Shown here: in pieces, positions 6,538 to 59,317 of the stretch
Layout of the letters: the number at the start of each line of letters is the position of its first letter
How positions within the stretch are numbered: position 1 is the stretch's first letter
NCBI RefSeq assembly: GCF_000186865.1
Contig: NW_008705577.1
Coordinates: 387,970-451,969, forward strand
Source of the DNA: Aureococcus anophagefferens
Taxonomy: Eukaryota; Sar; Pelagophyceae; Pelagomonadales; Pelagomonadaceae
DNA: 64,000 nt
Direction: 5' to 3'
Notes under the pieces: model-generated
Database searches by the model: none
What the model saw: only the letters and a program-made list of their open reading frames with translations
What the model was told of the DNA's origin: nothing
Translations under genes and position numbers: made by a program

Positions 6538-9500
6538 ATGTCGCGCCTGTCGCACCAGCTCGGCGAGCTCATCAGCAGCAAGCAGGCGTCGCGCAAGAAG
6601 GCCGTCGAGGCCATCACGTCCATGCTCGAGGACGTGCAGCGGCGCGGCGCGCTGAGCGACCGCGAGTGGCTCGCGCTCGTCCGCTCCGCGGTCGCGTGCG
6701 CCAAGCACGAGCTCGCGGTCGCCGCCAAGGGCCGCAAGCCGCCGAAGCGCGAGTTCGGCGACTTCGTCGAGCGCGTCGTCAAGTGGGCCGACGGCTCCGG
6801 CGCGGGCCGGCGCCTCGCGGCCGTCGGGCGGCCGCTCGTGACCCACGTCGTCGAGACGCTCTACGCGGGCGACGCCGCCGTCGTCGAGGGCTTCGGCGGC
6901 GCGTACTGCCGCCTGCTGGAGCACGTGCTGGCCCAGCCGGAGTACGTGGCGTCCATGGATCGCCGGGACCTCGCGCGGATCTGCGTGAAATACGCGCGCG
7001 CGGTCGCGCTCGGCGACTTCGCCGGCGCGCCGACGGCCGCGGCGAAGCTCGCGATGCGGCGCTGCGCCGCGGGCGCGCTGCGGCGCCTCGCGGCGCGCGG
7101 CGGCGACGTGCGGAGCCACCGCCAGCCCCGCGAGGCGCTGCTGGCCTTCTGCCACGCGGCGTGCGAGCAGCTCGCGGACGCCGACGGCGGCGACGCCGGC
7201 TTCCCGGCGGCCGAGGTCTTCCACGCGCTCGCGCGGCTCCACGAGCGCGCGCCCGTCGAGGCCGCGGCGCTCGGCGAGAGCGGCGGCGCCGCGGCGGCCG
7301 CGCGCTGCGTCGCCGCGGGCGTCAAGGCGGCGCCGCGGGCCGCGCAGTGCGCGATGCTCGACTACGTCGCGCGCGCGGCGGCGCTCGCGTCGCCGCGGCT
7401 CCGGGCGCTGCTCCCGGGCCTCTACAAGAGCTTCGCCGCCCCGGAGCAGGTCGCGACGGTCGCCGTCGCGGCGCCGGGGCACGCCGGCGAGCTCCTCCCG
7501 GCGGCCGCGCGCTACCACCTCCGGCTCTGCGGAGCGCTCGCGGCGGTTAGGGACGGCGGCGACGCGACGGCGCCGACGCGCTTCGACGCCGTCGCGGAGC
7601 TCTGCGCGGCGCTCGGCGCCGTCACGCGGCGGCGCGTCGCGCCGGACGCGCGCGCCGCGGGCGCGCGGGGGCCCGAGCGCGCGCTGCTCGCGGCGTTGCC
7701 CGCGACGTCCGCGGCGCCGCTGCTCATGGTCCTCTGCGGCGTGCTCGAGGCGCGGCCGCCGCCGCGGGCCGCGGCGCCGCGGCGCGTCGTCTGGGACGGC
7801 GACGCCATCGTCGTCGCGGCGGCCCACGGCCTGGCGCTCGGCGCCCTCGTCGAGCGGCGCGAGGCCTGGTGCGCGTGCCTCGCGAAAGCCGTGAAAGCCG
7901 TCGCGCGCGTGTTGGCCGTCGACGGCGCGACGCCGCTGTCCTGGGCCTTCGACGACCGCCGCTGGGCGCTCATCGCGCTGGAGAAGCTGAGCGCCGAGTC
8001 GGCGGCGGCGCTCGACGCGGCGGACAAGGCCGCGGCCGCCGCGGACCGCGACGCCGCGGCGCCGGGTCTGGACTTCTGCGCCGCGGCCGCCGCGGCGCCG
8101 CCGCCGCCGGCCGCCGCGGGCTCCGCGGCGCTGCGCGGCGCCTGGCGCCGGGGCTGGTCGTCGCTCTGCGCCGTGCTCGGCGACCAGGAGCCGCGGCGCG
8201 CCGCGCGCCGCGTCGGCAGCCGGTCCCTCGACCTATCGGCCGCGGCGGCCGCCGCCGCGGGCGCGCTCGGCCGCGGCGTCGTCGACGCGACGGGCCTCGC
8301 CGACGCGCAGGCCGCGCGGGCCTTCTGGCGGTCGCCGCTCTTCGCCGCGGCGCACCTCGAGGGCGACGACGACGACGGCAAGGCACAAGTGCTATCGTGC
8401 GCCTGCGCGGCGCTTCGGGGCTTCGTCGCCGCGTCGCCGCGGGACGTGTCGCTCGCGGGCGGGCCCGACGACGTCGCCGACGTCCCGCGCGAGACCGACG
8501 GCGACGGCGACGAGCCCAACGACGAGCGCGCGCCGCCGAAGCACCGGCGCCACCGCCTCGCGCGCTGGGCGACGCGCGTCGTCGAGCGCGGCCTCGAGCG
8601 CGCGCCTGTGTGGAAATCAAATCTTCAACCCGACTTCAATGTGAGCGTACGCGATAGTTTCGACGCAATTTCTTCGGCTGGGCTTCGAGAACTCGACGAG
8701 AGCGATCGATTTGTCCAAAAATCAGCCGAATCGACTTCGATGTGACCGAGCTAGAGAATTCTGAAGTTTGGTCAGGACCGCCCAAACCAGCGGTTGAATT
8801 CCACACAGGCGCGCGCCCGGCGCGGCCGCGCGGGCGCTGCCCGGCGCCGTCTGCGTCCTCGTCGCCCTGCTGCGCGCGGGCCCGCCGCCGCCCCTCGCCG
8901 TCCCGGCCGGCGACCGGGTCTTAGAAGACGACGGCTGCCTCGGCGGCGACGAACGGAGCGCCGTCCCGGGCGCGTGGCGCTACCTGGCCGCCGCGCCGGC
9001 GCCGGCGCTCGCCGCCGGCGGGAACCCGGCCTTCGACGACCGGGACCGCGCCGTGCTCTTCGACGAGGTGCTCGACGCGCTCGTCGTCTGGCGCGAGCGC
9101 CGGTCGTCCGCCGCCGCCGGCGACGGCGCCGACGGCTCGTCGCCGAAATTGGCCGCGCGCGCGGTCCGCCGCCACCACCTCGCCGCGGCGCTGGGCACGC
9201 TCGTCGCAGAAGACGTCGCGGGAAGCGACGGCGAGCGGAAGCGCCGGCTCGCGACGCACGCGAGCCGCGCGCTCAACGGCTTGGCGCGGACGTGGGACCA
9301 GCCGCTGGGGCCGCGCGGCGCGGCGGACGCGCTCCGCGCGCTGGACCGCCTCGCCGACGCGGCGCTGTTGCTCGGCGGCCTCGCGGAGACCCTGGACGAC
9401 GCCCAGTGCGCGCCGTCGCTCGCTGGGCTCGCGGACCTGGCCGCGCAGCGGCTCGGCGACTACGGCGCCGCGCGCCGCGAGCGCGCGGGGGACGACGACG

Positions 9501-12500
9501 ACGAGCCGCCCGCGGCCGCGGCCCCGGCCTCGCAGCAGAGCGACAGCGACGACATGATGGACGACGACTCCGACGACGGCATGACGCACACGCCCGCGCC
9601 GGCGGCCTACGACGAGGCCCGGGACGCCGCGGCGCCGCCGCTGCCGACGGCGGCCGCGCGCCGCGGCGTCGTGGGCCTCGCGCGCGCGGCGCTCGCGCCG
9701 GCGTCGAGCTTCGGCCACCGCGCCGAGAAGGTCGCGGCGGCTTTCCAGGGCGTGCTGGCGACGAGCTCGGCCGCGGCCGCGGACCTCGACCGCGGCGACG
9801 CTNNNNNNNNNNNNNNNNNNNNNNNNNNNNNNNNNNNNNNNNNNNNNNNNNNNNNNNNNNNNNNNNNNNNNNNNNNNNNNNNNNNTCGCGGGCGCGCGCG
9901 AGTCCCCCGGCCGCGAGGCGCTCCTCGACGGCGCCCGACAGCTGCTCTTCGCGAGCGACGACGCGGCCGGCGGGCGCCTCGGCGCCGCGGCGGAGCGCGA
10001 CGGCGGCGCGCGCGCCGCGCAGCTCGCCGCGGCCACGCGGGCCTTCCGCGCCTGGGGCGGCGCGCCGGCGACGGCGGGCGTCAAGGCCCTCAAGACGGCC
10101 TACGTCTTCCTCCTCATGCGGCGCTTCCGCGACGACGACGCGCGCGCGCGCGCCGCGGCCGCGGACGGCGCGGGCGCCCTCTTCGAGTCCTACGGCGTCG
10201 CGAGCCACGCCAAGGTCTGGGCCCAGCTCTTAAAGAAGCTGCCGCCCCTCGAGAGCGACGAGGCCGCCGCCGACGCGGCCTACGCGGACGGCGACGACGC
10301 CGCGGCGGCGCCGCGGCGCCGGTGCCTCGAGCTCACGGCGCTCGAGGCCGTCGGCAGCGTCGCCGGCGTCGCCGGCTGCGGCGTCGCGCGCCTCGCCCTC
10401 GGCCGGCTCGTCGCCCTCGGCCGGCGGCCCCACCTCGCGGCGCCGGCCGCGGCGGCCGTCGGCGCGGCGGCCGCGCGCCTCGGGTTCCCGAGCGCGCGCG
10501 CGCTCCTCGAGGCCCACGTGGGCCACCTCCTCGCGGACTGGGTCGGCGCCGGCGGGGCGCCGCCGCGGCCCCTCGCCGAGTTCCCGGCCAAGTTCGCGGG
10601 CCTCGCGCGGAGCGGCCGCGCGTTCCTCGCGCGCGCGGCGCCGCGCGTCGCGCCGCTCCTCTGCGGCGCGGAGGACGCGCACCTGCGCTTCACGCTCTTC
10701 GCCGAGCTCGCGGAGCACCTGGGCTTCGGCGCCGACGACGCCGCGCGCCGCGCGTTCGTCGCGTCGTGCGCGCCGCGCGTCGTCGCGTCGTCGTTTTTGG
10801 CGGCGCCGGCCGCGGCGCGGCGCATGACGGAGTTCCTCGACCGCGAGCTCGGCGGCGAGAAGCGCTGCAACGCGGCCATGCGCGAGCGGCTGCCGCGGGT
10901 CGTCTTCTACCTCGTCGAGGCGGTCTACGACGACCCGGCCGCGGCCGCGCCGGCGACGGCCGCGCTCCGCCAGCTCGGCGCGGGCTTCGACGGCGCGCCC
11001 AAGGACCCCGCCGCCGCCGCGCGCCACCTGCTCCACCGCTGCAACGCCGCGGAGGTCGTGCTCTCGCTCGCCGCGGCGCTCGCGCGGCCCGCGGGCCGCG
11101 CGGGCGGCGCCGCGCGCGCGCTCGCGGCGCTCCGCGTCGTCCTCGACGCGTCGGGCCTGTCGACCTGCGAGGCTACGGCGGCCGAGGCGCCCCACTACGC
11201 GTCCTGCCTCACGGCGGCGCTCGCGGCCCTCGTCCACGCGTGCGCGGGCGCCGGCGAGCCGGCGGCGGGCTTCCCGGAGTCGGACGAGGCCGCGTGCGAT
11301 TTGCTGGACCGGACGGTGCGCAGCGCCGCGGCGACGGCCGAGGGCTGCAAGGCGCTCGCGCCGCTCCTGCCGACGGCGGCCATCCTCGCCGGGTCGCTGG
11401 CCGCCGCCTACGGCCGCGCGGAGGACGACGCGGGCGACGCGGGCTGGATCGCGCTGCCGCGCGCGCGGGCCGCGCGGGCGGCCGACGGCGGCCGCTGCGC
11501 GGCGCTGGCGCAGCGCGCCGCGGCCCTCGCGGCCTTTTGCGTCCTCAAGCCGCCGCGCGACCTCCGGAGCGCCGCGGCGCTGTCGCCGGCGTTCCGCTTC
11601 GACGCGCGCGCGCCCCGCGACCGCTGGGACTGGCGGCGGTCCATGGACGCCGCGGGCGGCGGCGCCGGCCCGCTCGCGCGGCCCGCGCGCATCTTTGCCC
11701 TCGCGAGCCTGCGCCTGCTGCTCGCGGACGACGCGACCCGCGGCGGCGCGGGCTCCGTGGACGCGCTCGCGGAACTCGTCGCGTCGTCGGGCGACGCGCG
11801 CGAGCGCGCGCTCGCGGGCGACTGCCTCGGCGCGCTCGGCGCGCGCGGCGCGGCGGCGCCCGGCGCCGCGGCGCCGGCGCCGCCGCGGACCTTCGACGGC
11901 GCCAAGGGGGAAGCCTGCGTCGCGCTCGCGCGCGCGCTCGTCGACGGCGACGGCGCCGTGTCCCGCGCGGCGCGCGCGACCGCGAAGGCGCTCGCCGCCG
12001 ACGATGAAGCGAACGGCGACGTCGCCGCGGCCGCGCGGGACGCGGAACATGACGCCCACGCGGCGCTGCTGCTGCCGTTTCTCGAGACGCGCGCGGTCGC
12101 CTACGCGGCCACGGCCGCGGGCGACGCCGCGGGCGACGCGGACGAAGGCGTCGACTGCTGGGGCGACGGCGTCTGGGCCGTCGACGGCGACTTCGGGCGC
12201 TGGGTCACGGGCCTCGTGCCGGCGCTGTTACGGGCGCCGCGCGACGCGAAGGCGTTCCCCGGAGACGCGTTCCTCGGTCGGTGCTCGGCGCTCGCGGCCG
12301 CGGCGCCGTCCTTCGCCGCGCTCGTGTTCCCCGCGGTCGTCTATGATTTGGTGGGGTCGCGGGCGGGCGACAATGGCGACCGGTGCCGCGACGGTTTGAG
12401 AGATGCACTTTGCGTGAAGCTCCGCGACGTCCTGGACGCGGCGACGGCGCCCGCGGCTTCGGCCGCGGACCGCGAGGCCGCGCGCCTGGTCGTCGACGCC

Positions 12501-15500: not shown

Positions 15501-16477
15501 GCGAAGCTGACGAACGCGAAGGACGGCAAGGGCTCGGCGAAGAAGGCGGACGAGGCGCGCCGGCGCAAGCGGCGCGCTTTTGATGATATCTGCGCCAAGT
15601 TCCGCCCGGCGTTCCGGTTCTTCTTCGTCGAGCACTTCGCGGACGCGCGCGACTGGTCGGATCCAGGGCAGCAAAAGGGTGATTCAACGTCGCTTCAACG
15701 TGAGTGTTCCGCGCGCGCGCGTTCCGGAAAAAGCGTCCACGCTTCGAGACCGTCCCGAGAGATGATCGCTCGTCCAAAAATCAGCCGAAACGAGCGGAAA
15801 ACGACTGAGATAGGAGCCTTTGAAGTTGGGAATTTCGCACCCTTTTGCTGCCCAGGTTGGACCGCCGCGGCGCGTACACGCGGTCGGTGGCGGCGAACGC
15901 GATGGTGGGCCACGTGCTGGGCATCGGCGACCGCCACGCGCAGAACATCCTCGTGGACACGCGGTCCGGCGAGCAGGTCCACATCGACTTCGGCGTCGCC
16001 TTCGACCAGGGGAAAGCCTTGACGGCGCCGGAGACGGTGCCGTTCCGGCTCACGCGCGACGTCGTCGACGGCATGGGCTGCCACGGCACGCACGGCGCCT
16101 TCACCCTGGCCGCCGAGGCGACGATGAAGACGCTGCGAAGGCACGCGGGCGAGATCGTCACGATCCTCGACGTGCTCATCCACGACCCGCTCTACCGGTG
16201 GATGGTCTCGCCCAAGGACGCGCGGCACCGCCAGCGCCACGACGACGCGGACGACGGCGACGACGCGTCGCGGCCGGGCGGCGGCGAGTCCAACGCCGGG
16301 GACGCGAACGACGACGCGGAGCGCGCGCTCTTCAAGGTGAAGCAGAAGCTCCAGGGCTACGAGGACGCGGGCCACGACGTCCTCTCCGTCGAGGGCCAGG
16401 TCAAGAACCTCGTCGCCGACGCCACGGACCCGGAGAACCTCTGCGTCCTCTTCCCGGGCTGGGCGCCCTGGCTCTAA
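6538..16477 (+). CDS. ATM: ATM/Tel1-type PI3K-related protein kinase
   Basis: Exons 6538-8597, 8809-15655 (interrupted by an N gap) and 15856-16477; about 3,170 aa, close to animal and plant ATM. The N-terminus has a TAN-like motif (LGELISSKQASRKKAVEAI), which favours the ATG at 6538 over one at 6373. A long helical-repeat region follows, then the kinase domain near 15,130-16,100: DDVRQDAVMEQVF, the catalytic GIGDRHAQNILVD, the DFG-like HIDFGVAFDQG, and VPFRLTRDVVDGMG. The protein ends in a FATC domain, DPENLCVLFPGWAPWL. ATM signals DNA double-strand breaks and, as Tel1, telomere state. Two introns are introner elements. Removing intron 2 joins DW to LDRRGAYTRSVA, matching the IWFEKRLAYTRSVA region of human ATM. 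The frame changes across the N gap. Confidence 0.92.
8606..8808 (+). mobile_element. Introner element, family B copy 1 (in ATM)
   Basis: 203-bp element with terminal inverted repeat CTGTGTGGAA...TTCCACACAG. It is flanked by an 8-bp direct repeat GCGCGCGC at 8598-8605 and 8809-8816 (low complexity, so weaker evidence than other copies). The intron is 8598-8808: it begins with GC of the left repeat and ends with the AG of the element. Splicing gives GA|G CGC, moving from frame 1 to the frame that continues to the N gap. Base composition is sharply AT-richer than the exons. Confidence 0.9.
9803..9885. other. Assembly gap (83 N) inside ATM
   Basis: Run of 83 N. The ATM frame before the gap is complete to base 9802; after it, the conserved frame has codons starting at 9888. 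The real missing sequence must therefore be of length 3n+1 if purely coding, which 83 is not; alternatively it contains an intron, possibly another introner, since such repeats break assemblies. Confidence 0.95.
15664..15855 (+). mobile_element. Introner element, family A copy 1 (in ATM kinase domain)
   Basis: 192-bp element. The left end is CAGGGCAGCAAAAGGGTG and the right end, reverse-complemented, is CTGGGCAGCAAAAGGGTG. The flanking 8-mers are GTCGGATC (15656-15663) and GTTGGACC (15856-15863), a duplication with two later differences. The intron is 15656-15855 (200 bp): GT from the left duplication, AG from the element end. Splicing restores W-L-D-R-R-G-A-Y-T-R, which matches ATM proteins across the junction, so these splice sites are strongly supported. 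Confidence 0.95.
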
Positions 16478-16493
16478 GGCGGACTCTCTGTCA

Positions 16494-16859
16494 TTACAGC
16501 AGGCCCTCGTCGAGCATCATGTTCGGCCGCCCCTCCTCGATGGGGAAGGTCTGGCCGCTCTCCTCGCAGACGAGCTGGCCCTCGATGACGTGGACGTCGA
16601 AGAGCACGTGCTGCAGCGCGCGGAGGAACGCCTCGTCGCCCCGGAGCGCGTCGTCGAGCGCGGGCGGCAGCGTCACGCCGACGGTGCTCGCGGACGCGAC
16701 GAGCGACGGCCACTCGAGCGTCGGGAGCACGTGCTCGAGGAACTCGGCGTCGAACTCGCTATTCTGGCGCACCTCGACCTTCGTGGCCACGAGGCGCAGG
16801 CGGCCGTCCGTGACGTCCTTGCGCGTGCACTTGAGCGTGTTCAGAGTGAGCAGGCGCAT
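16494..16859 (-). CDS. TRM112: TRM112, methyltransferase activator subunit
   Basis: 121 aa, the usual family length. It starts MRLLTLNTLKC, has LEWPSLVAS in the middle and ends with VIEGQLVCEESGQTFPIEEGRPNMML, which is the family's C-terminal zinc-knuckle-like and IPNML region. TRM112 binds and stabilises several class I methyltransferases acting on tRNA, rRNA (BUD23) and the release factor eRF1 (MTQ2). In this copy the usual N-terminal zinc Cys residues are partly absent (one Cys at residue 10) while C-C spacing in the second half is retained only in part. Its stop lies 16 bp from the ATM stop (convergent). Confidence 0.92.
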   Translation of the reverse strand: MRLLTLNTLKCTRKDVTDGRLRLVATKVEVRQNSEFDAEFLEHVLPTLEWPSLVASASTVGVTLPPALDDALRGDEAFLRALQHVLFDVHVIEGQLVCEESGQTFPIEEGRPNMMLDEGLL

Positions 16860-16870
16860 CGTTTGCGTTG

Positions 16871-16974
16871 TTATGCGCGTGCGAGGAGCGTCGCGCGCGT
16901 CTCAGGCGATCGGAGGTGCTGTTTATGCGCGTGCGAGAGCGTCGCGCGCGTCTCGGACGGTCGGAGGTGCTGTG
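16871..16974. repeat. Two-copy 52-bp tandem repeat in a divergent promoter
   Basis: TTATGCGCGTGCGAG starts at 16871 and again at 16923, with GCGTCGCGCGCGTCTC and ATCGGAGGTGCTGT / GTCGGAGGTGCTGT following in the same order. It lies between the TRM112 start (16859) and the secreted protein start (17093), so it could affect both promoters. Confidence 0.85.
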
Positions 16975-18610: not shown

Positions 18611-18631
18611 TGCGAAACCTTCCTCTTACTA

Positions 18632-39405: not shown

Positions 39406-39412
39406 ACTAGGC

Positions 39413-44848: not shown

Positions 44849-46003
44849 CTGCGAGAAACGGGGAAACGGTGAGCGGACCGCGCGCGGATTCGAGGGGCGG
44901 AGCGAAGCGACGTGTCCTCCCCTCTCGCGACGGCCGGGGGGCGTGGAGAGCCTCGCCGCCGAACGGCCGGAGCCGGCCGTTCGGCGCCGCCGCCGCGCCG
45001 GGCGCGCCCGGGCACGGCGGGCGGCGCGACGGCGACGATCCGCGGGGGTGAGGAGGCGCTCCCCGCTCGTCCCGGAGGAGGGGCGGGGGGCGCCCGTCGA
45101 CGGCGCGGACGAACGGCGGCCACTTGAGGCGGTCCGCCGTGGCGCGCCGCTCGCCGACGTCGTCGCCCCGCGAAACTTCGCCCGTCGCTCCGTCGACGCA
45201 AATTGACCACTTCCCCCGGCTTGAGGGCGGCCCCTGTGCGCGCCGCGCGCGTCGCTACCACTGGACGCCGACCAGCACCTCGATCGGCTTGGCGACTCAG
45301 GCTGAGGCGATGGCTAGGTTATCCGGCTAACTAGGTTTATCCGCCGGGGGTCGAGGGCTGGGCCAGCGCTCCTGTGCCGGCTTCTCACGTGTCCCGAGCG
45401 TGAGATGTACGTCCGATGGCGCGGCCAGGCCGACCAGCGCCCGGCGCACACGTCCGACAGACGCCCGTCGCGCGGCGTCGGTCCCGGCGGCGCGACGCGA
45501 TCCCCGAGACCCCCCGCGACGCGGACACCGTGACGAGACCCACCACCTGCCTGAGCCTGCTGACTCCGCCGGGGGTCGAGGGCTGGGCCAGCGCTCCTGT
45601 GCCGGCTTCTCACGTGTCCCGAGCGTGAGATGTACGTCCGATGGCGCGGCCAGGCCGACCAGCGCCCGGCGCACACGTCCGACAGACGCCCGTCGCGCGG
45701 CGTCGGTCCCGGCGGCGCGACGCGATCCCCGAGACCCCCCGCGACGCGGACACGAGACCCACCACCTGCCTGAGCCTGCTGACTTTAAAGACAGTTCTAC
45801 GCTCTACGTGACTCACAGTACGCCCTAGTCATCGTCTATCCCCTAGTCATCAAACTACCTCTAACTAGAACACCAACAACGCTGCATAATCTGGATATGG
45901 AAGCTGCGGGGGACGCCAAAAATCTGGCAGCAAGGCCGTGCGGCTTCTTGGCTGTGGCAGCCCCGGGCGACGTTCCTCGGCGGCCCCGGAGCGGCGCAGT
46001 CCC
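44849..46003. other. Intergenic/intronic region with no clear gene
   Basis: 1,155 bp between the eL40 exon and the surface-protein start. It holds the 5' part or first intron of eL40 (not identified) and a 225-bp tandem duplication. A short stretch on the minus strand, [12 protein letters not shown] then stop (about 45,289-45,253), looks coding-like but cannot be linked to a gene. Confidence 0.5.
45341..45790. repeat. 225-bp tandem duplication
   Basis: CCGCCGGGGGTCGAGGGCTG starts at 45341 and again at 45566. The two copies stay nearly identical to CCACCTGCCTGAGCCTGCTG, the second ending about 45,782. They differ by a 6-bp CGTGAC-like indel near 45,529 / 45,753. Near identity indicates a recent event. 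No coding sequence is convincing in either copy. Confidence 0.9.
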
Positions 46004-49000
46004 ATGGTGCCCCGGCGGGCCCTCGCCGCGCTGGCGCTGGCGCTCCAGCACGGGAAAACGAGCGCCGCCTCCTGCGACGACGTCTGCTGGGACGACGCCG
46101 ACGCCGTCGCCGCCTGGGACTGCGTCGCGTCGCCGGAGCCGATCCAGGTCATGGAGCGGGACGACGAGGACCACTACAGCGTGCGCTACCTCGACACGCA
46201 GACGGGCGAGTACGAGCTCGTCTACGAGATGGACTGGTTCGACGGCCACGTCAACGGCGCGGCCATGTACGAGACGCCGGGCGGGTCGTACTACACGTTC
46301 GCGTCCATGGCGGGCTTCCTCTGCCGCTTCGACGCGAGCGGCCAGGCCTGCTTCGACACGCCCCTGGAGTACAGCGCCAACGTCGGCACCATCGTCGGCA
46401 ACTCCTACTACTACTCGAAGAACACCGGCGAGGACGACGACGGCGACTCGTTCGTCTACTTCGTCGAGGACATCAACGACGCGGACCCGACGTTCCACGC
46501 CGACCCCATCCTCGCCATCGCCGACGACGTCTTCCAGGAGGCCGTGCTCGACGTCATCCCCCTCGACGAGGCCGCGGCGTCCGACGACGAGTTCTCCGGC
46601 GCGCGGGTCTACGTCGACGACGACGACGCCGCGGGCACCTACCTGCTGGGCCTGTCCCAGGACTACAAGGTCCTCGTGATCCATCTCGACGACACCGGCT
46701 ACCCCGACAAGTACGCCGTCCTCGACACGTCCGTGGACTGGGGCGACGCCGAAGAAGGTGGGGAGACGGCCTTTGGAGCCGCGTTCGCGTACCACAGCGC
46801 GGACGGCGGCCGCCGCGCGTACTTCGCGTCCAACGACGGCTACGGGTTGCTGGAGCTGGACCTGCCCGTGACCGTGCCCGATGCGTGCTGGAATTCGGGG
46901 TTGGATACGTCGGGCCACAGCGCGTGCGCGTCCGGGTCGTCCGAAACGTTGGAATGGCTCGCGTACTCGCGCGAGGCCTCGAGCAACGACGGCCTCAACT
47001 GCCCCGTCTTCTGGTCCGTCTACGCCACCTACGCGCCGACCCTCGCCCCGACGAAGGAGCCGAGCGGCGCGCCCTGCCCGAGCGGCGACGTCTGCTGGGC
47101 CGACTTTGGGGTCGACGCGTGGGACTGCGACCTCTACGCGGCGCCGGTGCAAGTCTTGGAGCGCGAGGGCGACGACCACTACACGGCGAACACGCTCGAC
47201 GTCGACACGGGCGAGTACACGCAGATCTTCTCCCTGGACTGGTTCGACGGCCACGTGAACGCGATCTCGCTCTTCGACGGCGGCGACCATGGCTACTACG
47301 CGTTCGGCGAATTCGAGCAGAAGCTCTGCCGCTTCGACGACTCCGAGGCGTTCTGCTTCGAGAAAGATCTTGAGCTCAAAGCGAACGTGGGCACGATCTC
47401 GGGGGACAACTACTACTACTCGAAGAATCTCGGCGACGGCGAGGACGTCATCTACGTCGTCATGGGCATCAACGGCGACGCGCCGCGGTTCCACACGGAG
47501 ACGAACTTCGCCGTGAACGGCGACCTCTGGGAGGGGGCTGTGCTCGACTTCGTCGCCGTCACGGAGGAGGGCGACAACGGCTTGGTCGTCGACGGCGAGT
47601 CCTCGGGCACGTACCTCTTCGGTCTGGGCAAGGACTACGAGCTCCTCGTCGTCCACGTGGACCCGGACAGCGGCTACCCGGACAAGTACGCCGTGCTCGA
47701 CAGCGACGTGGACTGGGGCGACTACGACGGCGACACGGGCACGACGGCCTTTGGGGCCGCGTTCGCGTACGAGCCCACGGACGGCAAGCTCACGGAGATC
47801 TACTTCGCGAGCAACGAGGGCTACGGCCTCTTCCAGCTCGTGCTCCCCTTTTCCATCGACGACGCCTGCTGGAACGAGGGCTTCGACTCGTCGACGCACG
47901 CCGCCTGCGCCGCGTCGCCGGACGTCGACCTCCGGTGGCGCGCGGAGAGCCGCGACGCGTCGTCGAACGACGGCATGAACTGCCCCGACGGCGACATCTT
48001 CGCCACGGACCCGCCGAGCCCGGAGCCGTCCTACGCGCCCACCGTGTCGCCGACGCCCGAGCCGACGCCCGTCCCCACGCCCGCGCCCACGCCCGAGCCG
48101 AGCCGGACGCCGACGCCCGCGCCGACGCCGACGCCGACGCCCGAGCCGTCCTACGCGCCGACGAAAACGCCGACGCCCGAGCCCAGCGAGGCGCCCGCGC
48201 CGGACCCGACGCCGACGCCGACGCTCGTGCCGTCGCCGGAGCCCACGCGGACGCCCGTGCCCGCGCCGACGTACGCCCCGACGGAGCTCCCGTCGCCGCG
48301 GCCGTCGCCGCGGCCGACGCACTCGCCGTCGTTCATGCCCATCGAGCCCTGGGACTGCGACGTCCACAGCAACCCCGTGCAGGTGCTCCAGTGGGGGGAC
48401 ACGGACGAGTACAGCGTCCGCGAGCTCGACCTGTACACGGGCGAATACTCCAAGGTCTTCGACATCGACTACTTCGGGGACCACGTCAACGCCGTCGCGC
48501 TCCTCGATCTCTCCTACGCCGGCGACGGGCCCTTCTACGCGTTGGGCTCCTTCCAGGGCTACCTCTGCTACTTCGACGTCGACCGCGCGGAGTGCTTCGC
48601 GGACGCGCTCGCCGAGGAGAAGCCGAACGTCGGCGCGATCGTCGAGGACCGCTACTACTACGCCAAGGAGCCGGGCAACAACGGCGAGAAGTCCTTCTAC
48701 TGGGTCGAGGGCATCGCGGGCTCGAGCCCCGCGTTCCACGACGACGCGCGCTTCGCGGTCTCCGAGGACCTCTTCACGAAATCCGTTTTAGACGTCGCGC
48801 CCGTGACGGAGGTCGACGACGACGGCCTCGTCCTCGACGGCGTCACCGCGACCTACCTCGTGGGCCTCGCCTACGACAAGAAGGTGTTCATCGCGCGCGT
48901 CGACGACGACGGCTACCCCGGCGCGTACGCGGTCCTGGAGTCGTACGTCGACTGGCGGGGCGGCGACGAGGACGACGGCGACACCGCGTTCGGCGCGGCC

Positions 49001-52000
49001 TTCACCTACAGCGACCCGAGCGGCGGCCTCCACCTGCTCTTCGCCGCCAACGAGGGCACGGGCGTCTTCGAGCTGTCGCTGCCCGTCGACGTGCCCGACG
49101 CGTGCTGGAACGAGGGCGCGGACGTCGCGGACCACGTCTTCTGCGAGGGCGCGACGCTCCTGGAGCTCGTCAAGGTCGGCGAGTCCCAGGAGACGTCGTC
49201 CAACGACGGCCTCAACTGCCCCTTCTCCGCGAGCCTCTTCCCGCCGACGGCCGCGCCGACGGCCGCGCCCGCGGGCACGCCCGTCGAGGCGCACGACTGC
49301 GACGCGCACGACAACCCCATCCAGGTCATGCGCTTCGACGGCAACGACCAGTACAGCGTCCGGGAGTTGGACGTGATCACGGGCGTCTACGAGGAGCTCT
49401 ACGAGCTCGACTGGTGGGACGACCACGTCAACGCCGCGGCGCTCTACGAGGCCGCCGACGGCGCCTACTACCCGTTCGCGTCCTTCGGGGGCTACCTCTG
49501 CAAGTTCGACGCGGCCCACAAGGTCTGCTTCGACACGGCGCTGGAGCACGCGAAGCCCAACGTCGGCGCCATCATCGAGGACAACTACTACTACGCCAAG
49601 GACGTCGGCCGCGACGACAACAAGCACTTCTGGTGGGTCGAGGGCCTCGACGGCGACGACCCCGTCTTCCACACGGACACGCTCTTCTCCGTCTCCGACG
49701 AGCTCTACACCGAGGCCGTGCTCGACGTCGCGCCGCTCGTCGAGCAGCCGGGCGAGGTGTCCATCGACGACGGCGTCGACGGCAAGTACCTCGTCGGCGT
49801 CGGCGAGCGCTTCGAGGTCCTCGTCGTGCGCCTCGACCCGGCGGGCGCCCCCGAGGCCTACGCGGTCCTCGAGGGCGCCGTCGACTGGCACGTCTGCGAC
49901 GAGGGAGATGACGAGGACGAGGAGTTCGGCGCCGCCTACACCTACCTGGGCAGCGACGGCGCGAGCCACCTCATCTTCTCGTCGAACCAGGGCGCGGGCA
50001 TGTTCGAGGTCGAGCTGCCGCTCGTCGTGCCGGACGGGTGCTGGAACACGGGCGACGACGTCGACGACCACGTGGCGTGCTCGTCCGGGACGACGGCGGA
50101 CGTGAAGTGCCTCGGCCCGTCCGACAAGGCCGAGAGCAACGACGGCTTCAACTGCCCCTTCAACACGAACATCTTCGTCCCCACGTCCGCGCCGACGGTC
50201 GGCCCGACGCTCTCGGACGTCAACGCGCACAACTGCGAGCTCTACGAGAACCCGACGCAGGTCATGCGCTACGACGGCGCGGACGAGTACAGCCTCCGCG
50301 AGCTCGACGTCGTCACGGGCGTCTACTCCGAGGTCTACACGATCGAGTACTGGGACGACCACGTCAACGCCGCGGCGCTCTACGAGGCCGACGACGGCCG
50401 GTTCTTCCCCTACGCGTCCTTCGGGGGCTACCTGTGCAGCTTCGACGCGACGAAGAAGAAGTGCTTCGACACGCCCCTCGCGGAGGAGAAGCCGAACGTC
50501 GGCGCGATCCTCGGGTCCAACTACTACTACGCCAAGGACTTCGGGCGCGACGGCAACACCGACTTCTGGTGGGTCGAGGGCATCGACACGCCGTCGCCCG
50601 AGTTCCACGAGGGCACGCTCTTCGCCGTGTCCGAGGACCTCTACGCGGAGGCCGTCCTCGACGTCGCGGCGCTCCCCGAGGCGGCGGGCAAGACGTGGAT
50701 CGACGACGGCGTCGCCGAGGGCCAGTACCTCATCGGCCTCGCGGAGCAGTTCGAGGTCCTCGTCGTGCGCATCAACACGGCGACGGGCTACCCCGAGTCG
50801 TACGCGGTCCTCGAGAGCGCCGTCGACTGGCACGTCTGCGACGAGGACGACGAGGACCAGGAGTTCGGCGCGGCGTTCCACTACCTGGACAAGGACGACG
50901 ACGCCCACATCCTCATCTCGTCGAACCAGGGCAGCGGCATTTTCGAGGTCAAGCTGCCGCTCGTCGTGCCGGACGAGTGCTGGAACACGGGCGACGACGT
51001 CGACGACCACGTGGTCTGCACGGCCGGGTCCACGGCGAGCATCCAGTGCCTGGGCCCCTCGGAGGAGACGAGGTCCAACGACGGCCTCAACTGCCCCTAC
51101 AGCGACAACCTCTTCGTGCCGACGGCCGCGCCGACGCTCGCGCCGACGCTCAGCCCCATCCTGCCCTTCAACTGCACGGCCTACAACACGCCCGTCCAGG
51201 TGCTCCAGGTCGACGACGACAGCGACATGTACAGCGTCGCCAGCCTCGACGTGCTCACGGGCGAGTACGAGGTCCTCTGGGACATCGACTGGTTCGACGG
51301 CCACGTCAACGCCGTGGGCCTCTACGCGCCCGAGGGCGAGGACGCCTACGCCTGGGGCTCCTTCGGCGGCTACCTCTGCAAGTTCGACCACGTCCGCAAG
51401 GAGTGCTTCGACACGCCCCTGGCGGAGGAGAAGCCGAACGTCGGCGCGGTCCTCGGCGACGACTACTACTACTCCAAGGACGTCGGCCGCGACGAGGAGC
51501 GGGGCTTCTACTGGGTCGAGAACATCCTGGACGACGAGCCCGTCTTCCACTCGGGCGTCGAGTTCCTCGTCTCCGAGGACCTCTACGAGGAGGCCGTGCT
51601 CGACGTCGCGACGGTCAGCGAGACCGACGGCCAGGTCTGGATCGACGACGACCTCGTCGACGGCTCCTACCTCGTCGGCCTCGGCGAGGCCTTCGAGATC
51701 TTGGTGGTCAAGATCAACAAGGACTCGGGCTACCCGGAGGCCTACGCGGTCCTCGAGAGCGACGTCGCGTGGAAGGACGGCGAGCTCGACGACGACCAGG
51801 AGTTCGGCGCGGCCTTCACGTTCTACGACCCCCAGGGCGACGTCCACGTGCTCTTCTCGTCGAACCAGGGGTCGGGCATGTACGAGCTCGCGCTGCCGAT
51901 CGCGATCCCCGACGGCTGCTGGAACACGGGCGTCGACACGTCGTCGCACGCCGGCTGCGCGGCCGCGGGCGCGCAGCCCATCAACTACATCGGCCCGTCG

Positions 52001-55000
52001 GACGAGACGGACAGCAACGACGGCATGAACTGCCCCTACGACCTCGAGATGTTCGTCCCGTCGGCCGCGCCGACGCGCGGCCCGTCGTTCTCGCCCATCG
52101 AGCCCTTCGACTGCGCCGCGCACAGCAACCCGCTCCAGGTGCTCCAGGTGGACGACGACAGCGACATGTACAGCGTCGCGGAGCTCGACGTGGCCACGGG
52201 CGAGTACGAGGTCCTCTGGGACATCGACTGGTTCGACGGCCACGTCAACGCCGTGGGCATGTACCTCGGCGACCAGGACGCCGACTTCCCCGAGTACTAC
52301 GCCTGGGGCTCCTTCGGCGGCTACCTCTGCGGCTTCGACCTGACGCGCAAGGAGTGCTTCGACACGCCCCTGGCGGAGGAGAAGCCCAACGTCGGCGCGG
52401 TCCTCGGCGACGACTACTACTACTCCAAGGACGTCGGCCGCGGCGAGGAGCGCGGCTTCTACTGGGTCGAGGGCATCCTCGACGACGCGCCGACGTTCCA
52501 CAACGACGTCCAGTTCGTCGTCTCCGAGGACCTCTACACGGAGGCCGTGCTCGACGTGGGCATCGTGCGCGAGATCAACGGGAACACGTACATCGACGAC
52601 GGCGTCGACGGCGGCAAGTACCTCATCGGCCTCGCGGAGCAGTTCGAGGTGCTCGTGATCCGCATCAACACGGACACGGGCTACCCCGAGTCCTACGCCG
52701 TCCTCGGGACCTACGTCGTCTGGGGCGACGGCGAGGAGACGTCGGAGGACCAGGAGTTCGGCGCCGCGTACACGTTCTTCGACGACGACGAGGACGTTCA
52801 CGTGCTCTTCTCGTCGAACCAGGGGTCGGGCATGTACGAGCTCGCGCTGCCCTTCGAGATCCCCGACGGCTGCTGGAACACGGGGAGCGACACGTCGTCC
52901 CACGTCTTCTGCACGGCCGCGGGCGAGCAGCGCGTCAACTGGGTCGGCCCGTCGGACGAGACGGACAGCAACGACGGCATGAACTGCCCGGACACCATGA
53001 ACCTCTTCCGGCCCACGTCCTCGCCGACGCTCGCGCCGTCCCAGTCGCCCATCGCCGAGTTCAACTGCGACGAGTACAAGAACCCGATCCAGGTCATGCA
53101 GACGGACGACGACGACTACTACACGGTCCGCGAGCTCAACATGGTCACGGGCGAGTACGAGTACCTCTTCGGCCTGGGCTACTTCGACGGCGACCACGTC
53201 AACGCGGCGGCGTTGCGCCACAAGTCCTTCACGAAGACCGACGGCTCCACGGGCCACAAGTACTACCTCTGGGCGTCCTTCGACGGGTCGCTCTGCTCCT
53301 TCGACCGGGGCCACAAGATCTGCCTGAGCGAGCCCCTCATGGAGGCGAAGCCCAACGTCGGCGTCATCGTGCGCCAGAACTACTACTACGCCAAGGACCC
53401 GGGCCGCGACGGCGACAAGCCCATCTACTGGATCGAGGACGTCGACGGCGCCGCGCCCGTCTTCCACGACGACGCGTCGCTGGCCATCGCCGACGACCTC
53501 TACACGGAGGCCGTGCTCGACGTCGCCCCGCTCATCGAGACCGCCGACGACGAGGTCTACGTCGACGACGGCAAACTGTCCGGCGCGTACCTCGTCGGCC
53601 TCGCGGAGCAGGCCGAGCTCCTGATCGTGCGCCTCGACGCGGCCACGGGCGAGCCCGAGGCCTACGCGGTGCTCCCGGGCGCCATCGAATGGTACGGCGA
53701 GCCCCACACGGACGAGGACCAGGAGTTCGGCGCCGCGTTCGCCTATCTGCGCTCCGACGGCGACCCGCGGGTCCTCTTCTCGTCGAACCAGGGCTTCGGC
53801 ATCTTCGAACTCACCCTGCCCGTCGTCGTCCCGGACGGCTGCTGGAACACGGGCACGGACACGTCGAGCCACGCGGCCTGCGACGAGGCCGACGCGGTCA
53901 CGCTTTCCTGGATCGCCGACTCGCGCGAGGCGGAGTCGAACGACGGCCTCAACTGCCCCTACAACGAGGAGCTCACGCCGCCGACGCCGCAGCCGACGGA
54001 GGCGCCGAGCGAGACGCCGCTCCAGCCCTTCGACTGCGCGTCCCACGGCAACCCGGTCCAGGTGCTCAAGTGGGACAACGAGGACCTCTACTCCGTCCGC
54101 GAGCTCGACATGACCACGGGCGAGTACACGCTCGTCTACGACCTCACGTGGTTCACGCGCCACATCAACGCGGCGTCCCTCTACTTCGACGGGACGGACT
54201 ACTGGGCCGTCGCGTCGTTCGCGTCGAAGCTCTGCTTCTTCGACGGCTACCAGGAGCGCAACGACTGCAAGGGCACGCTCGTCGTCGAGAAGCCGAACGC
54301 GGGCGCGGTCATCTTCGACAACTACTACTACGCCAAGGACGTCGGCCGCGACGGCGAGAAGCCCGTCTACTGGGTCGAGGGCATCCGCGACGACGAGCCC
54401 GCCTTCCACGAGGACTACAACTTCCTCATGTCCGAGGACCTCTTCGCCGAGGCCATTTTAGACTTCGCGGCGCTCGTCGAGAAGAACGAGAACGTGCTGG
54501 GCAGCGGCTACGACGTCGAGGTCGACTTCGTCGTCGACGGCGTCGTCGGCGCGAACTACCTCGTGGGCCTCGGCGAGCAGGGCGAGGTCGTCGTCATCTA
54601 CGTCGGCGACAGCGGCGAGCCGACGAAGTACGCCGTGCTGCCGTCGACCTTCGACTGGGACGGCCAGGAGTCGACGTCCGAGAACCAGGAGTTCGGCGCC
54701 GCGTACACGTACGTCGACTTCGACGCGACGGCCGACGACCCCTACGCGTCCTACTCCGTGAGCCTGCTCTTCTCCTCGAACCAGGGCTACGGCGTGTTCG
54801 AGCTCGAGCTGCCCATCACCGTGCCCGACGAGTGCTGGAACGCGGGCGACGACACCAGCTCGCACGTCTTCTGCGACGCCGCGGAAGGCGTCGTGCTGAA
54901 GCTCGTCGGCGAGTCCGACGAGACGTCGTCGAACGACGGCATGAACTGCCCCTTCGCCGCCGCCAACGCCTACGTGTCCGCGCCCGCGCCCGCCCCGACG

Positions 55001-57142
55001 GCCGGCGAGTTCGTCGACGCGCCGGCGCCGACGGCCGGCGCCGATTGCGCCGACAGCGAGTCCTGGTACAAGAAGGGCACGACCTGGAAGGACTGCACCT
55101 GGGTCTCCGAATATTCGCCGAACCGCTGCACGGTCGTCGGCGAGGACGACTCGCTCGCGGAGGACGCGTGCCCCGCGGCCTGCGACGCCTGCGACGGCGT
55201 CGCGCCGGCGCCGACGGCCGGCGAATTCGTCGACGCGCCGGCGCCGACGGCCGGCTTTGTCGACGCGCCGGCGCCGACGGCGAGCCCCGTCGCCGCGCCC
55301 ACCGCGGCGACCGTCGACGCCCCGGCGCCCACCGCGGCGACCGTCGATGCCCCAGCACCGACCGCGGCGACCGTCGACGCGCCGGCGCCGACCGCGGCGA
55401 CCGTCGATGCCCCGGCGCCGACCGCGGCGACCGTCGATGCCCCGGCACCGACTGCGGCGACCGTCGATGCCCCGGCGCCGACTGCGGCGACCGTCGACGC
55501 CCCGTCACCGACCGCGGCGACCGTGGACGCGCCGGCGCCGACTGCCGCGACCGTCGACGCGCCGGCCCCGACTGCCGCGACCGTCGATGCCCCGGCGCCC
55601 ACCGCGGCGACCGTCGACGCGCCGGCGCCGACCGCGGCGACCGTCGATGCCCCAGCACCGACTGCGGCCACCATCGATGCCCCGGCGCCCACCGCGGCGA
55701 CTGTGGACGCGCCGGCGCCCACCGCGGCGACTGTGGACGCGCCCGCGCCCACCACGGCGACTGTGGACGCGCCGGCGCCGACCGCAGCGACTGTGGACGC
55801 GCCCGCCCCCACGGCCGCGACCGTCGATGCGCCGGCGCCGACGGCAAGCCCCGTCGCCGCGCCCACCGCGGCGACCGTGGACGCGCCCGCGCCGACCGCG
55901 GCGACCGTGGACGCGCCGGCGCCGACCGCGGCGACCGTGGACGCGCCCGCGCCGACGGACTCGGACGCGAACGTCGCCGCGATCGTCAGCAGCGAGATCA
56001 CCATGGAGAACGTGACCCAGTCCATGGTCGACGACGCCGCGACGACGTCGGCCGTCATGTCGAGCGCCCTGACGGAGGTGTTGACCATGGTCGACTCCGA
56101 GGACGACGTCGGGGACGTGTCGCTGACGCTCGCGCGGCGGCGGCGCCTCGAGGCCGGCTCCGTCGCGCGCGCGACCTTCACCGTGACCATCGACACGCCC
56201 GCGGACTACGGCTTCGCGAGCGCCGACGACGCGTTCAACGCGCTCATCGCCGAGCTCGCGGCCGCGGCGGAGGACGGGAGCCTCACGGCGTCCATCGCCA
56301 CGTACGCCGAGGCCCTTGGCTGGGCGCGGGACCCGACCGTCGGGCCCGAGGGCAACTCCCTCGAGGATCTCCGGGACGCGTCCTCCGTCGAGTCCGCCGA
56401 GGCGGAGGCGACCGGCGGCGGCTCGTCGGGCGGCGACGACGAGGCGGCGGACGCGGCGTCGGGCGGCCTGCTCATCATCATCCTCTGCGTCGTCGTCGCG
56501 CTGCTCGGCGCCGCGGGCGCCTTCTGGTTCTACAACCGCGAGGGCGCCAAGGAGCAGGCGCGCAAGGAGCGCTTCGACGCCATCAACAACGAGGCGGGCG
56601 ACGCGGGCGACTACCGCGTCGACGACGACGTCGAGGGCTACGGCGGCGAGTCGCAGGACGACGCCTACGGCGGCTACGGCGGCGACGCCTACGGCGACCG
56701 CGCGGCCAAGGAGCACGCGGCCTTCATCCCCGTCGACGACCAGGCCGCCGTGAAGCCGCCGCCGCCGCCGTCGCCGCCGCAGGCCGCGCCCGGCGCGTTC
56801 GACGCGCCGCCGCCCGCGCCCTACGCGGCGGCCGCGGACCCCTTCGGGGCGCCCCGCGACCCCTTCGCCGCGCCGGCGGCGCCGTCCGTCGCCGCCGTGC
56901 CCGTGGCGGCCCACGACGACATGGCGGACCCGGACGGCGTCGGCTTCAACTTCAACGAGCCGCCGTCGGCGCTCGACGCGGACGACGCCGCGGAGATCGA
57001 GGCCATGGGCTTCCAGCTCAACGAGGACCCCGGGCCCGACGGCGTCCGCGCCGCGAGCGCGACGGAGACCATAGACCACCCGCCGCTCTTCGCCGCCCAG
57101 GTGTCCCGCCGGCCGTCCCAGCAAATCGGCAAGGACCTCTGA
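46004..57142 (+). CDS. Giant repeat-containing type I membrane surface protein
   Basis: 3,712 aa in one exon. The ATG at 46004 opens a signal peptide ([14 protein letters not shown]). Nine tandem ~310-aa repeats follow (46,120-54,960), each with the order NPxQV, YSVRELDxxTGEY, DWFDx[19 protein letters not shown], YYYAKDxGR, VLDVAP, YAVLE, FGAAFTY, SSNQGxG, CWNxGxD and SNDGxNCP, then a short PTxAPT linker. The linker after repeat 2 is a longer Pro/Thr-rich stalk. After the ninth repeat: a Cys-rich ShK-like module ([17 protein letters not shown]), the [10 protein letters not shown] array, an unassigned ~130-aa domain, a single span ([20 protein letters not shown], ~residue 3,490) and a tail with [10 protein letters not shown] and Pro-rich motifs. 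Strand-rich repeats suggest a propeller-like fold; ligand unknown. Confidence 0.85.
46120..54960 (+). repeat. Nine coding tandem repeats of ~930-1,000 bp
   Basis: Repeat starts, judged by the DC-x(5-8)-QV motif: about 46120, 47122, 48352, 49292, 50228, 51169, 52108, 53062 and 54031. Repeats 4-7 are the most alike, for example AEEKPNVGA is shared by 3, 5, 6 and 7 and nearly by 4. Repeats 1, 2 and 9 are the most divergent, as expected for terminal units. Confidence 0.85.
55301..55950 (+). repeat. 30-bp minisatellite encoding [10 protein letters not shown]
   Basis: About 21 head-to-tail 30-bp units inside the surface-protein gene, interrupted once by an APTASPVA variant unit that also precedes the array. 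Most changes between units are synonymous (GTCGAC/GTCGAT/GTGGAC), so the peptide is conserved. Confidence 0.9.
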
Positions 57143-57314
57143 GCACCCCCGCCCCTCCCCCTCCCGCGCCCGAGGCAGGACCGCAACCGCTCCGAGCCCG
57201 CGCCACCCGACCCTCCTCCTAAAACCCGCCCCTTCACTCGTGTTATGGGACCTAAAAACCCCGGGCCCTCCTGTCAGAGTCCTGAAGGCTTGGATAGGTT
57301 TATGGGAGGCGAGC
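57143..57314. other. Intergenic, convergent gene ends
   Basis: 172 bp between the surface-protein stop and the DNAAF4-like stop; C-rich 3' UTR-like start. No gene seen. Confidence 0.4.
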
Positions 57315-59317
57315 TCAGTCGAGCGCGGCGTCCGCCTCCGCCGGCGGCGGCGGCGGGCTCGCCTCCGCGGCGTCGGCCTTGGCTTTCAGCGCGTGCAAGT
57401 CGGACGCCAGCTTCTCGTCGCCCGGCGCGATGGCCGCGGCCGTCTCGTAGTCGGCGACGGCCGCGCGGAGCTCGCCGAGCGCCGCCAGCGCCGCGCCGCG
57501 CCGCGCGAGCGTCCGCAGGACCCAGGCGCGGCGCTTGTCGCTGCCCGCCGGGGGCACGGGCCCGGCGGCGCGCGCGCCGTCGTCCGCGCCCTCGAAGAGG
57601 GCCAGCGCCGCGGAGCAGTCCGCGACGGCGCCGGACGCGTCGTCGCGCGCAAGCCGCGCGGCCGCGCGGTTCGCGAGCGCGGAGACGAAGTGCGGCTCGA
57701 CGTCGAGCGCGGCGCCGTAGGACGCCTCGGCGCTCGCCGCGTCGCCGCGCTGGAGCGCCGCGTCGCCCGCGGCCTTGGCGTCCGACGCGGTCGCCAGCGT
57801 CCGCGCGCGCGCCGCGTCGTCGCGGAGCTGCTGCTGGCCGAGCGACGCCGCGTCCGCGAGGGCCGCCGCGTCCCCGAAGTCCGCCGCCGCCGCCGCGTAG
57901 GCGCCGAGGCCGCACCGCGCCGCGCCGCGCCGCGCGAGGATCTTCGTCCGGAGCTTCGCGGCGACGTCGCCCTCGAGCGCCTTGGCGCAGTCGGCGACGC
58001 AGTCCGCGTGGCGCTCGAGGCGCAGGTAGCAGGCCGCGCGGTTCGCGCGGCAGGCGTGCTGGTCCGGGTCGAGCTCGAGGGCCGCCGAGTAGGCGCTCTC
58101 GGCGCTCCGGTAGTCGCGCGACGCGTAGAAGTGGTCCGCGCGGCCCTTGAGCCAGGTGGGGTCGCACTCCTCGATGCCGCGGCCGTCCGTGCCGACGATG
58201 GACTTGCCGAAGAGCATCTTGTTCTTGTGGAGGTGCGTGCGGTTCTTCGAGATCCACTCGTTCTCGTCCCGGAGCTTGGACTCGCGCATCGGCGTCGGGA
58301 ACCTGGGCAGCAAAAGGGTGATTCAACGTCGCTTCAACGTGAGTGTTCCGCGCGCGCGCGTTACGAAAAACACATCCACGCTTCGAGAACGTTCCGAGAG
58401 ATGATCGCTCGTCCAAAAATCAGCCGAAACGAGTGGAAAACGGCCGAGATCGGAGCCTTTGAAGTTGGGAATTTCGCTCTCTTTTGCTGCCCTGTCGGGA
58501 ACACGCGCGGCGTGTGGCTCACGTTGACGACGGCCGTGCCGCCGCCGCGGACGGCCGCGGCCGCCTTCTTCCGCGCCTTGCGCGACTTCTTCTTCGGCGC
58601 TACGTTCTCCGCGGCCGGGGCGTTCTCGGCGTCGGCGGACGCCGCGGGGACTTTTGGCGGAGGCGCGGGCTCCTCGGCGGCGCCGTCGAGGTCGAAGCCG
58701 CCGTCGTCGCCGACCTCCCGCACCTTCTCCTCCTCCTCTTCTTCCTCCTCCTCCTCCTCTTCCAGGAGCTTGGCCTGCTCGGCCTCGGCCTTGAGCTTCG
58801 CCTCCTTGACCTTCATCTCTTTAAAGGCCTCGTACATGTCCTCCTCCGCGCGGCTCTTCTCCGTCGCCTTCTTCTCCTCGACGGTGCACCGCTCCGTCTC
58901 GTCGAGCTTCATCTGCTTCCGCAGGGCCGTGCGGTCGTCCTCCTGCTTGCGGTCCTTGGCGCGCTCGCCGATCTCCTGCTCGCGCGCGGACCGCCGCGCC
59001 TTGGCCTCCGCGCGCCTTTCGAGGAGCTCGCGCTTTTGGAACTGCTTGCGGTCGAGGACGAGGGCGCCCCAGGTCTCGCCGGGCTGCTTCTTCGGGAGGC
59101 TCAGCGTGAGGTGGCCGTCCTTGATCTTCGCCACGGCGCCGTCCTCGTCGACCTCGTTGATGAGATCCAGCTCCACGAGGCGCGGCGGGTAGCTCACCTT
59201 GGCGTAGACGTCGGCGGCGTAGACGTCGACGCTCTTCGCGCTGCAGCCCCGCAGGTTGATGCGCACGATGACCTTCTCCGCCGTCTCCTTCCATTGGTAC
59301 TCGCCGGGCGTCGACAT
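57315..59317 (-). CDS. DNAAF4: Dynein axonemal assembly factor 4 (DYX1C1-like), CS + TPR
   Basis: Exons 59317-58503 and 58302-57315, 600 aa. The N-terminal p23/CS domain (YQWKETAEKVIVRINLRG; YPPRLVELDLI; DGHLTLSLPKK) is followed by a charged coiled coil with a 12-Glu run. The CS domain plus a conserved hinge, VSHTPRVFPTPMRESKLRDE, matches human DNAAF4 (FTPRVFPTALRES...). TPR repeats follow (RADHFYASRDYRSAESAYSA, CRANRAACYLRLERHADCVA, RRGAARCGLGAYAAAAADF), then three further TPR-like units, so it is longer than the 420-aa human protein. DNAAF4 is a co-chaperone that assembles dynein arms in the cytoplasm of cells that build motile cilia. The hinge is split by introner A4; splicing joins PR|VFPTP exactly. 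Confidence 0.88.
58303..58494 (+). mobile_element. Introner element, family A copy 4 (DNAAF4 gene)
   Basis: 192 bp, same plus-strand orientation as copies 1 and 2, but the gene is on the minus strand, so it works antisense relative to them. Perfect 8-bp duplication TCGGGAAC at 58295-58302 and 58495-58502. In the gene's sense the intron is 58502-58303 (200 bp): GTTCCCGA at the 5' end (GT donor), GCCCAG at the 3' end. Splicing yields CGC GT|G TTC CCG ACG, giving R-V-F-P-T. Confidence 0.95.

Follow-up and report, generated by a model that had tools for sequence, protein, structure and literature searches.

Seven short elements interrupt genes in a 64,000-nt stretch of the Aureococcus anophagefferens genome (bases 387970-451969 of contig 17, hereafter the window; the assembly is 49.05 Mb in 86 contigs). 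Sequence comparison confirms the seven-copy observation, and by this measure the elements would be introners. We put a probability of about 95% on their having arisen by insertion of transposons with terminal inverted repeats (TIRs), which duplicated 8 bp such that the 5' splice site would come from the left copy of the duplication and the 3' AG from the end of the element. In the proposed mechanism, non-autonomous TIR DNA transposons of two families (A, 192 bp; B, 203 bp) would insert into exons, duplicating 8 bp. The spliceosome would then remove the upstream repeat copy together with the element. The GT or GC opening the upstream copy would act as the 5' splice site, and the CAG at the element terminus as the 3' splice site. 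One repeat copy would stay in the exon, so the mRNA would regain its pre-insertion sequence. We favor this reading because of the copy statistics, the agreement with gene strand, the continuity of frame, the conserved joined proteins and the intronless paralogues. Splicing itself, movement by a trans-acting transposase and selection against unspliceable copies are what we infer from these patterns.

The window elements measure 203, 191 and 203 bp (family B) and four times 192 bp (family A). Their 8-bp flanking repeats are perfect in four cases, differ at one position in one and at two positions in two. Upstream repeat plus element starts with GT (three) or GC (four) and ends with CAG in all seven, and the frame is open across every joined junction. 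The introns so defined are 199 to 211 nt long, none of the seven lengths being divisible by 3. A read-through test took in six of them, leaving out the intron at 33543 (introns are named here by their lowest coordinate). Four of the six carry an in-frame stop, and the introns at 15656 and 40761 carry none. A preliminary description of the window had placed seven elements, tallied their repeats, equated each intron with left repeat plus element running from GT or GC to AG, and stated that removal restores the frame. All seven were located, the repeat recount was identical, and borders and open frames agreed in 7 of 7.

Copy statistics across the genome

The interior core shared by both families, GTCCAAAAATCAGCCGAA, occurs 2,210 times exactly in the genome and 3,973 times at up to three mismatches, against 12 for a reversed-pattern control. 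We sampled 110 loci plus the window. The sample is non-random and consists of the best 30 matches to each of two window copies, and the first 30 plus 20 further core matches (contig 1). Gene strand was set by codon usage alone, because circularity was to be avoided, using a model trained on window open frames. Thresholds on the repeat (at least 6/8) and the ends (at least 8/14) were passed by 120 of 134 candidate copies. Dropping three unclassified, three short-flank and six unclear-strand copies left 108, and removing one spurious family B row left 107.

On the sense strand the repeat starts with G and a pyrimidine (GY) in 106 of the 107 copies (63 GC, 43 GT), compared with a background of 20.6% in flanking DNA. 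The binomial p for this enrichment is about 1e-71, an indicative value only, since the sample is non-random and made up of related copies. The element ends in CAG in sense in all 107. With the cut at 6/8, 87 repeats are perfect, 16 match at 7/8 and 4 at 6/8. The preliminary description had proposed a genome search and a tabulation of 8-bp repeats; these gave the 3,973 core matches and the 87 of 107 perfect repeats.

An earlier count with longer flanks scored 99 of the 120 copies. The strand called from the repeat was the coding strand in 86 of 86 copies that were unambiguous; of 83 confidently coding sites, 82 kept a continuous frame (97 of 99 over all scored). These two figures, with the joined proteins and intronless paralogues given below, support the earlier claim that insertion made the introns. 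Sites are coding-like in 83 of 86 cases. For comparison, the figure is 458 of 591 for tiles of the window and 245 of 342 for tiles close to elements. Mean divergence from consensus is 4.5% for 57 family A rows and 7.0% for 54 family B rows. Many similar introns, an 8-bp target duplication and TIRs are the marks of DNA-transposon introners, and all are found here. One splice site also appears to be carried by the element and the other to come from the duplication, which would leave mRNA length unchanged.

The sampled elements are nearly all in coding sequence and nearly always in spliceable orientation, as would be expected if introns had spread by reverse splicing, an RNA-based transposition to which the flanking repeats would be incidental. 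However, an excised intron would bring its own 5' splice site and create no 8-bp duplication specific to the locus. In the sample, the opening 8 bases of the intron vary by copy and equal that copy's own right flank at 8/8 in 87 of 107. The interior of family B also runs either way (25 and 26 of 51, the spurious row still included), which a single-polarity RNA intermediate would not produce. We regard reverse splicing as extremely improbable.

Another explanation places the true donor outside the repeat, at a GT a short way upstream or at a strong GTGAGT-like site within the element. Among family A copies 26 of 57, and among family B copies 20 of 50, have a sense-strand GTRAG motif (R, purine) no more than 60 nt into the element. 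Two deposited A. anophagefferens gene models, JL721_1892 and JL722_13091, use an upstream GT at the 40761 intron, as compared by eye with the window DNA. Still, the 26 GTRAG-bearing family A copies are all of one polarity, and the other 31 have no such motif in that stretch. A donor at the internal site would lengthen the joined sequence by 44 nt and put it out of frame (hand count). It would also make the GY of the repeat unneeded, yet GY is nearly universal. The upstream donors of JL721_1892 and JL722_13091 lose 4 and 9 residues that intronless paralogues encode. A donor other than the repeat is thus very improbable. The 53 window residues aligned upstream of the JL721_1892 donor are identical to that A. 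anophagefferens protein. Annotation may hide GC donors, as judged at 40761, a single site; with two models there placing the donor elsewhere, GC introners of this harmful alga may be misread by automatic annotation.

The GY start might instead reflect a target preference of the transposase rather than selection for splicing. Few copies are not confidently coding (3 of 86) or lack GY, as target preference would predict, although purging of unspliceable copies fits equally. Family A repeats ending in RC are also enriched, at 21 of 57 against 11.7 expected. In family B, however, this figure is 14 of 50 against 10.3. If the transposase reads near-symmetric ends, its preference should show on both strands, yet GY sits on the sense strand of the gene. 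Orientation tracks the AG-bearing end, for which target choice alone offers no explanation. We consider target preference unlikely as the source of GY.

Several points weigh against the insertion of TIR transposons as the origin of these introns. The thresholds were failed by 14 of 134 candidates, some of them real copies with misplaced or diverged ends. One of the 107 copies has a repeat that does not start with GY, and two window repeats match at only 6/8. The GTRAG of 26 of 57 family A copies is nearer to the donor consensus than is the GC of the repeat, and its neglect is unexplained. Finally, end patterns and Pfam revealed no transposase and no longer same-ended relative in the genome that could be an autonomous partner, although these are weak negatives.

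The predicted donors are often GC, in 34 of 57 family A and 29 of 50 family B copies. Background frequencies are 15.6% for GC and 5.0% for GT, so that GT is enriched about eightfold at the repeat start and GC about fourfold. This suggests that GC is usable but less favored. G is in excess at repeat position 3 (28 of 57 in family A, 29 of 51 in family B), and there is otherwise little donor consensus. Introner families elsewhere have 0-50% GC donors each in the excerpted text of Gozashti et al. (PMC9860276), which draws on annotated introns. The shares here lie above that range, in a comparison of donors predicted from repeats with annotated ones.

Joined proteins and intronless paralogues

The first two introns probably belong to one ATM-like gene. 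The first runs from 8598 to 8808 (plus strand) and lies 3' of a TAN domain, a domain of the ATM N-terminus. Its left repeat copy, GCGCGCGC (8598-8605), opens with GC and matches the exonic right copy (8809-8816) at 8/8. The family B element between them (8606-8808, 203 bp) has ends that match at 13/14. The second intron (15656-15855, plus strand) falls within the PI3/PI4 kinase domain. Its left copy GTCGGATC (15656-15663), which opens with GT, and its exonic right copy GTTGGACC (15856-15863) agree at 6/8 around a family A element (15664-15855, 192 bp). Unjoined, the kinase domain scores 39.9 bits and ends at the junction. Joining raises the score to 177 bits, for a match that covers positions 5-239 of 241 and is followed by FATC.

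The kinesin gene carries a family A element at 25467-25658 (plus strand) downstream of the motor domain PF00225. Perfect copies of GCGCTCCG flank it at 25459-25466, where GC opens the intron (25459-25658), and at 25659-25666 in the exon.

Two introns interrupt an ion-channel gene on the plus strand. The first (33299-33498) lies within an EF hand and holds a family A element in the reverse-polarity form (33307-33498, minus strand). Its left copy GCATGCTC (33299-33306, opening with GC) and exonic right copy GCCGGCTC (33499-33506) match at 6/8. The second (33543-33741) holds a 191-bp family B element (33551-33741, plus strand) between perfect copies of GTCGCCGT at 33543-33550, opening with GT, and at 33742-33749 in the exon. 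An exon of 44 nt (33499-33542, plus strand) separates the two introners, which are of different families. The joined protein matches P0039 and P0040 at 95% over 97%, across both junctions. The alignment used three of four matches, and P0039 and P0040 may derive from intron-free DNA or from predicted splicing. In P0041, a further match, the protein continues into the element. The residues encoded there would imply that the left repeat was formerly equal to the right one.

In the DNAAF4-like gene, on the minus strand, the intron (58303-58502) starts with GT in the sense 5' copy GTTCCCGA (58495-58502). The family A element (58303-58494) is of the reverse-polarity form, with its core on the plus strand, and the exonic copy (58295-58302) reads TCGGGAAC on the plus strand, an 8/8 repeat. 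The joined junction HTPR|VFPTPMR is invariant in 9 of 9 aligned sequences, namely the window sequence and eight of 38 matches; one match, P0009, is also in the transcriptome collection MMETSP. The best match reaches 97% over 100%, and the second, JL720_2780, 86% over 70%. The latter is near-identical to the window protein where the models agree and unlike it where frame or exon choice apparently differs.

The domains matched also include PI3/PI4 kinase with FATC, CS and TPR in the DNAAF4-like protein and, for the channel gene, an ion-channel domain and a weak EF hand. Pfam supports the names kinesin, ATM and DNAAF4 given in the preliminary description, and an ion channel for its K+ channel. 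Its statement that the joined ATM and DNAAF4 proteins match family motifs also stands, given the rise in kinase score and the HTPRVFPTPMR junction. Its label GT8, for the gene holding the 40761 intron, is unproven, as that gene has no Pfam match.

The 40761 intron (40761-40971, plus strand) gave the clearest empty site. Its left copy GCGACGCG (40761-40768, opening with GC) and exonic right copy GCGACGTG (40972-40979) match at 7/8, and its family B element (40769-40971, 203 bp) has diverged ends (9/14). We searched the same genome with six joined junction regions as queries. For 40761, a 92% match of 263 bases at C61:33876-34138 runs directly across the junction; C71:39665-39907 gives 243 bases at 82%. 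On direct reading, both paralogues (L117, L118) are without the element. Eight bases stand in place of repeat, element and repeat, matching the right repeat at 6/8 and 5/8, respectively (hand count). The region 40761-40979 and the C61 and C71 paralogues make up a small gene family without a Pfam match. The site at 33299 is less clear. An ion-channel paralogue at C19 (L119) matches 78% over 131 bases up to the junction and stops there; by eye, the EF hand continues past it, with no element in 421 bases. The remaining sites among the six queries gave no countable junction-spanning paralogue in this genome. As the C61, C71 and C19 sequences are paralogues and not alleles, they illustrate the pre-insertion form and do not prove the ancestral state.

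Two families and splice polarity

Family A elements are 192 bp long with ends CWGGGCAGCAAAAGGG, and family B elements 191-203 bp with ends CTGTGTGGAAWTCA; some copies deviate. The families have the interior core in common and differ at their terminal ends, which might mean that they have swapped ends or that some function of the interior has kept it conserved.

All 57 family A copies have CAG at their sense 3' end, regardless of the direction of the interior (26 forward, 31 reverse). The sense 5' end is CAG, CGG or CCG in 56 (CAG itself in 46) and CTG in one. AG is therefore as a rule present at one end, and the element occurs only with that end downstream. Family B usually has AG at both ends and its orientations are equal. 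Its 5' end is CTG in 40 of 50 copies, with the T lost in 10, and its 3' end is CAG in all 50, with the T lost in none. We read this contrast as purifying selection for the 3' AG. The preliminary description had the element end supply the AG. This holds in 7 of 7 and is refined here: there are two families, family A has two splice-polarity forms, and the AG belongs to one particular end of the element.

Linked sites in the interior likewise distinguish the polarity forms of family A. In a tree of the interior only, polarity changes 5 times (4-5 in bootstrap trees), compared with 19 when shuffled, and the well-supported branches force only one change. This suggests repeated polarity switching. 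Family A might accordingly be a natural experiment in how a transposon becomes an intron, an idea we offer tentatively and with some doubt. One end would have kept CA(GGG), while the other now reads CT(GGG), the opposite-strand CAG, and would thereby form a 3' splice site. Which end carries this change differs between the two polarity forms. Recombination between the element's own inverted repeats could flip the interior while the splice-ready ends stay in place, and spliceability would then filter polarity in genes.

Known introners, possible carriers and other observations

Huff, Zilberman and Roy reportedly described in 2016 (Nature 538:533), in A. anophagefferens, short non-autonomous DNA transposons that give rise to introns, one splice site coming with the element and the other being recruited from the duplicated target. 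Because those introners come from this species or its nearest kin, a mechanism of this kind has already been described, and very probably the families have been too. The preliminary description held that the class was known but perhaps not these copies and families; the latter is probably mistaken, as the published length of about 210 bp, given in an excerpt of PMC9481584 as characteristic of Aureococcus introners, fits the introns of 199-211 nt found here. A passage of PMC7789003 has Aureococcus introners always with direct repeats and TIRs, of constant length and with canonical splicing motifs, whereas 63 of 107 copies here have predicted GC donors. Against the openly licensed PMC papers that the literature search covered, what would be added here is the two-polarity pattern, which may already be in print, and the predicted GC-AG majority.

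Other systems compare in part, as far as the excerpted sources describe them. Introner family 4 of Aureococcus sp. TARA (Gozashti et al. 2022, PMC9860276) shares the genus and the 8-bp duplication. Both splice sites lie within that element, and the mRNA gains 12 bp; the example spans 77 bp. Here the predicted addition is 0. Symbiodinium microadriaticum introners (PMC9860276) likewise have TIRs, carry the 3' site and take the 5' site from the duplication, but in a different host and with a 4-bp duplication. Those of Amoebophrya (PMC7789003) have inverted repeats able to pair once transcribed, with direct repeats at exon ends, but their splice motifs are mostly non-canonical and the direct repeats 3-5 nt.

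Introners are strong evidence for the bulk birth of introns by transposition. With thousands of copies, little diverged in the sample and often with a predicted GC donor and scant consensus beyond it, the minimal needs of splicing may be read from the survivors.

The 8-bp duplication and the CAGGG end would recall hAT elements by analogy. Miniature inverted-repeat transposable elements (MITEs) of the hAT superfamily have 8-bp duplications and CAGNG-like termini. The duplication is the same here and the sense 5' end of family A is CAGGG, but family B ends in CTGTGTGG, and the 3' end of family A and most family B ends read CTG. The present elements also appear to be spliced as introns, and no hAT transposase was matched, a weak negative. 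Across the genome, Pfam gave no match for the hAT dimer PF05699 (four candidates scored), the hAT-like RNase H PF14372, MULE or KDZ. Since only the MULE profile matched in control genomes, the other three negatives are weak.

We also looked in the genome for end patterns around an unlike interior. This gave one place for family A (as did the reversed control) and three for family B, including 33551 in the window. The three other places were rejected as autonomous partners, being shortened or diverged copies of the same elements. End patterns would miss partners with degenerate ends or identical subterminal sequence. One locus (L112, G000:C13:46200-46490) is a shortened family B copy of about 125 bp with a near-matching 8-bp repeat (6/8, by hand). 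Another (L113, G000:C10:630250-630500) is a family A copy with clipped ends and a near-matching repeat (7/8, by hand).

In a search of IMG/VR for the core and the family A end, leaving out the family B end, the core pattern occurred in one contig and the family A end pattern in two. The first (L114) is 39% GC, with open frames that give a phage-like impression, a lone core match and no surrounding element, and was treated as chance rather than as a virus carrier. The others (L115, L116) were also treated as chance, with length and GC considered.

A generic screen of the window for inverted ends flanked by 8-bp repeats returned 186 places, swamped by GC-rich sequence, against a mean of 22.5 over two shuffles. 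Those below 58% GC comprised four of the known seven elements and no further introner family. Neither Rfam nor a tRNA scan gave a hit in the window. The ends are paired in the folds of three introns (z of -3.2, -2.5 and -2.0), and some TIR positions match within the copy more often than when shuffled (9, 11 and 15 in family A; 11 in family B). Inheritance explains such matching equally, so we claim no role in splicing.

A single open frame of 3,750 codons spans 45890-57139 (plus strand). It has no Pfam family at E 0.01 and contains as many as nine internal repeat copies at intervals of about 930-1,250 bp, as well as an array of 30-bp repeats near 55115-56128. Close to where the ATM-like open frame starts, a run of 83 Ns (9803-9885), either an assembly gap or a withheld stretch, causes a low-GC island at 9681-10000.

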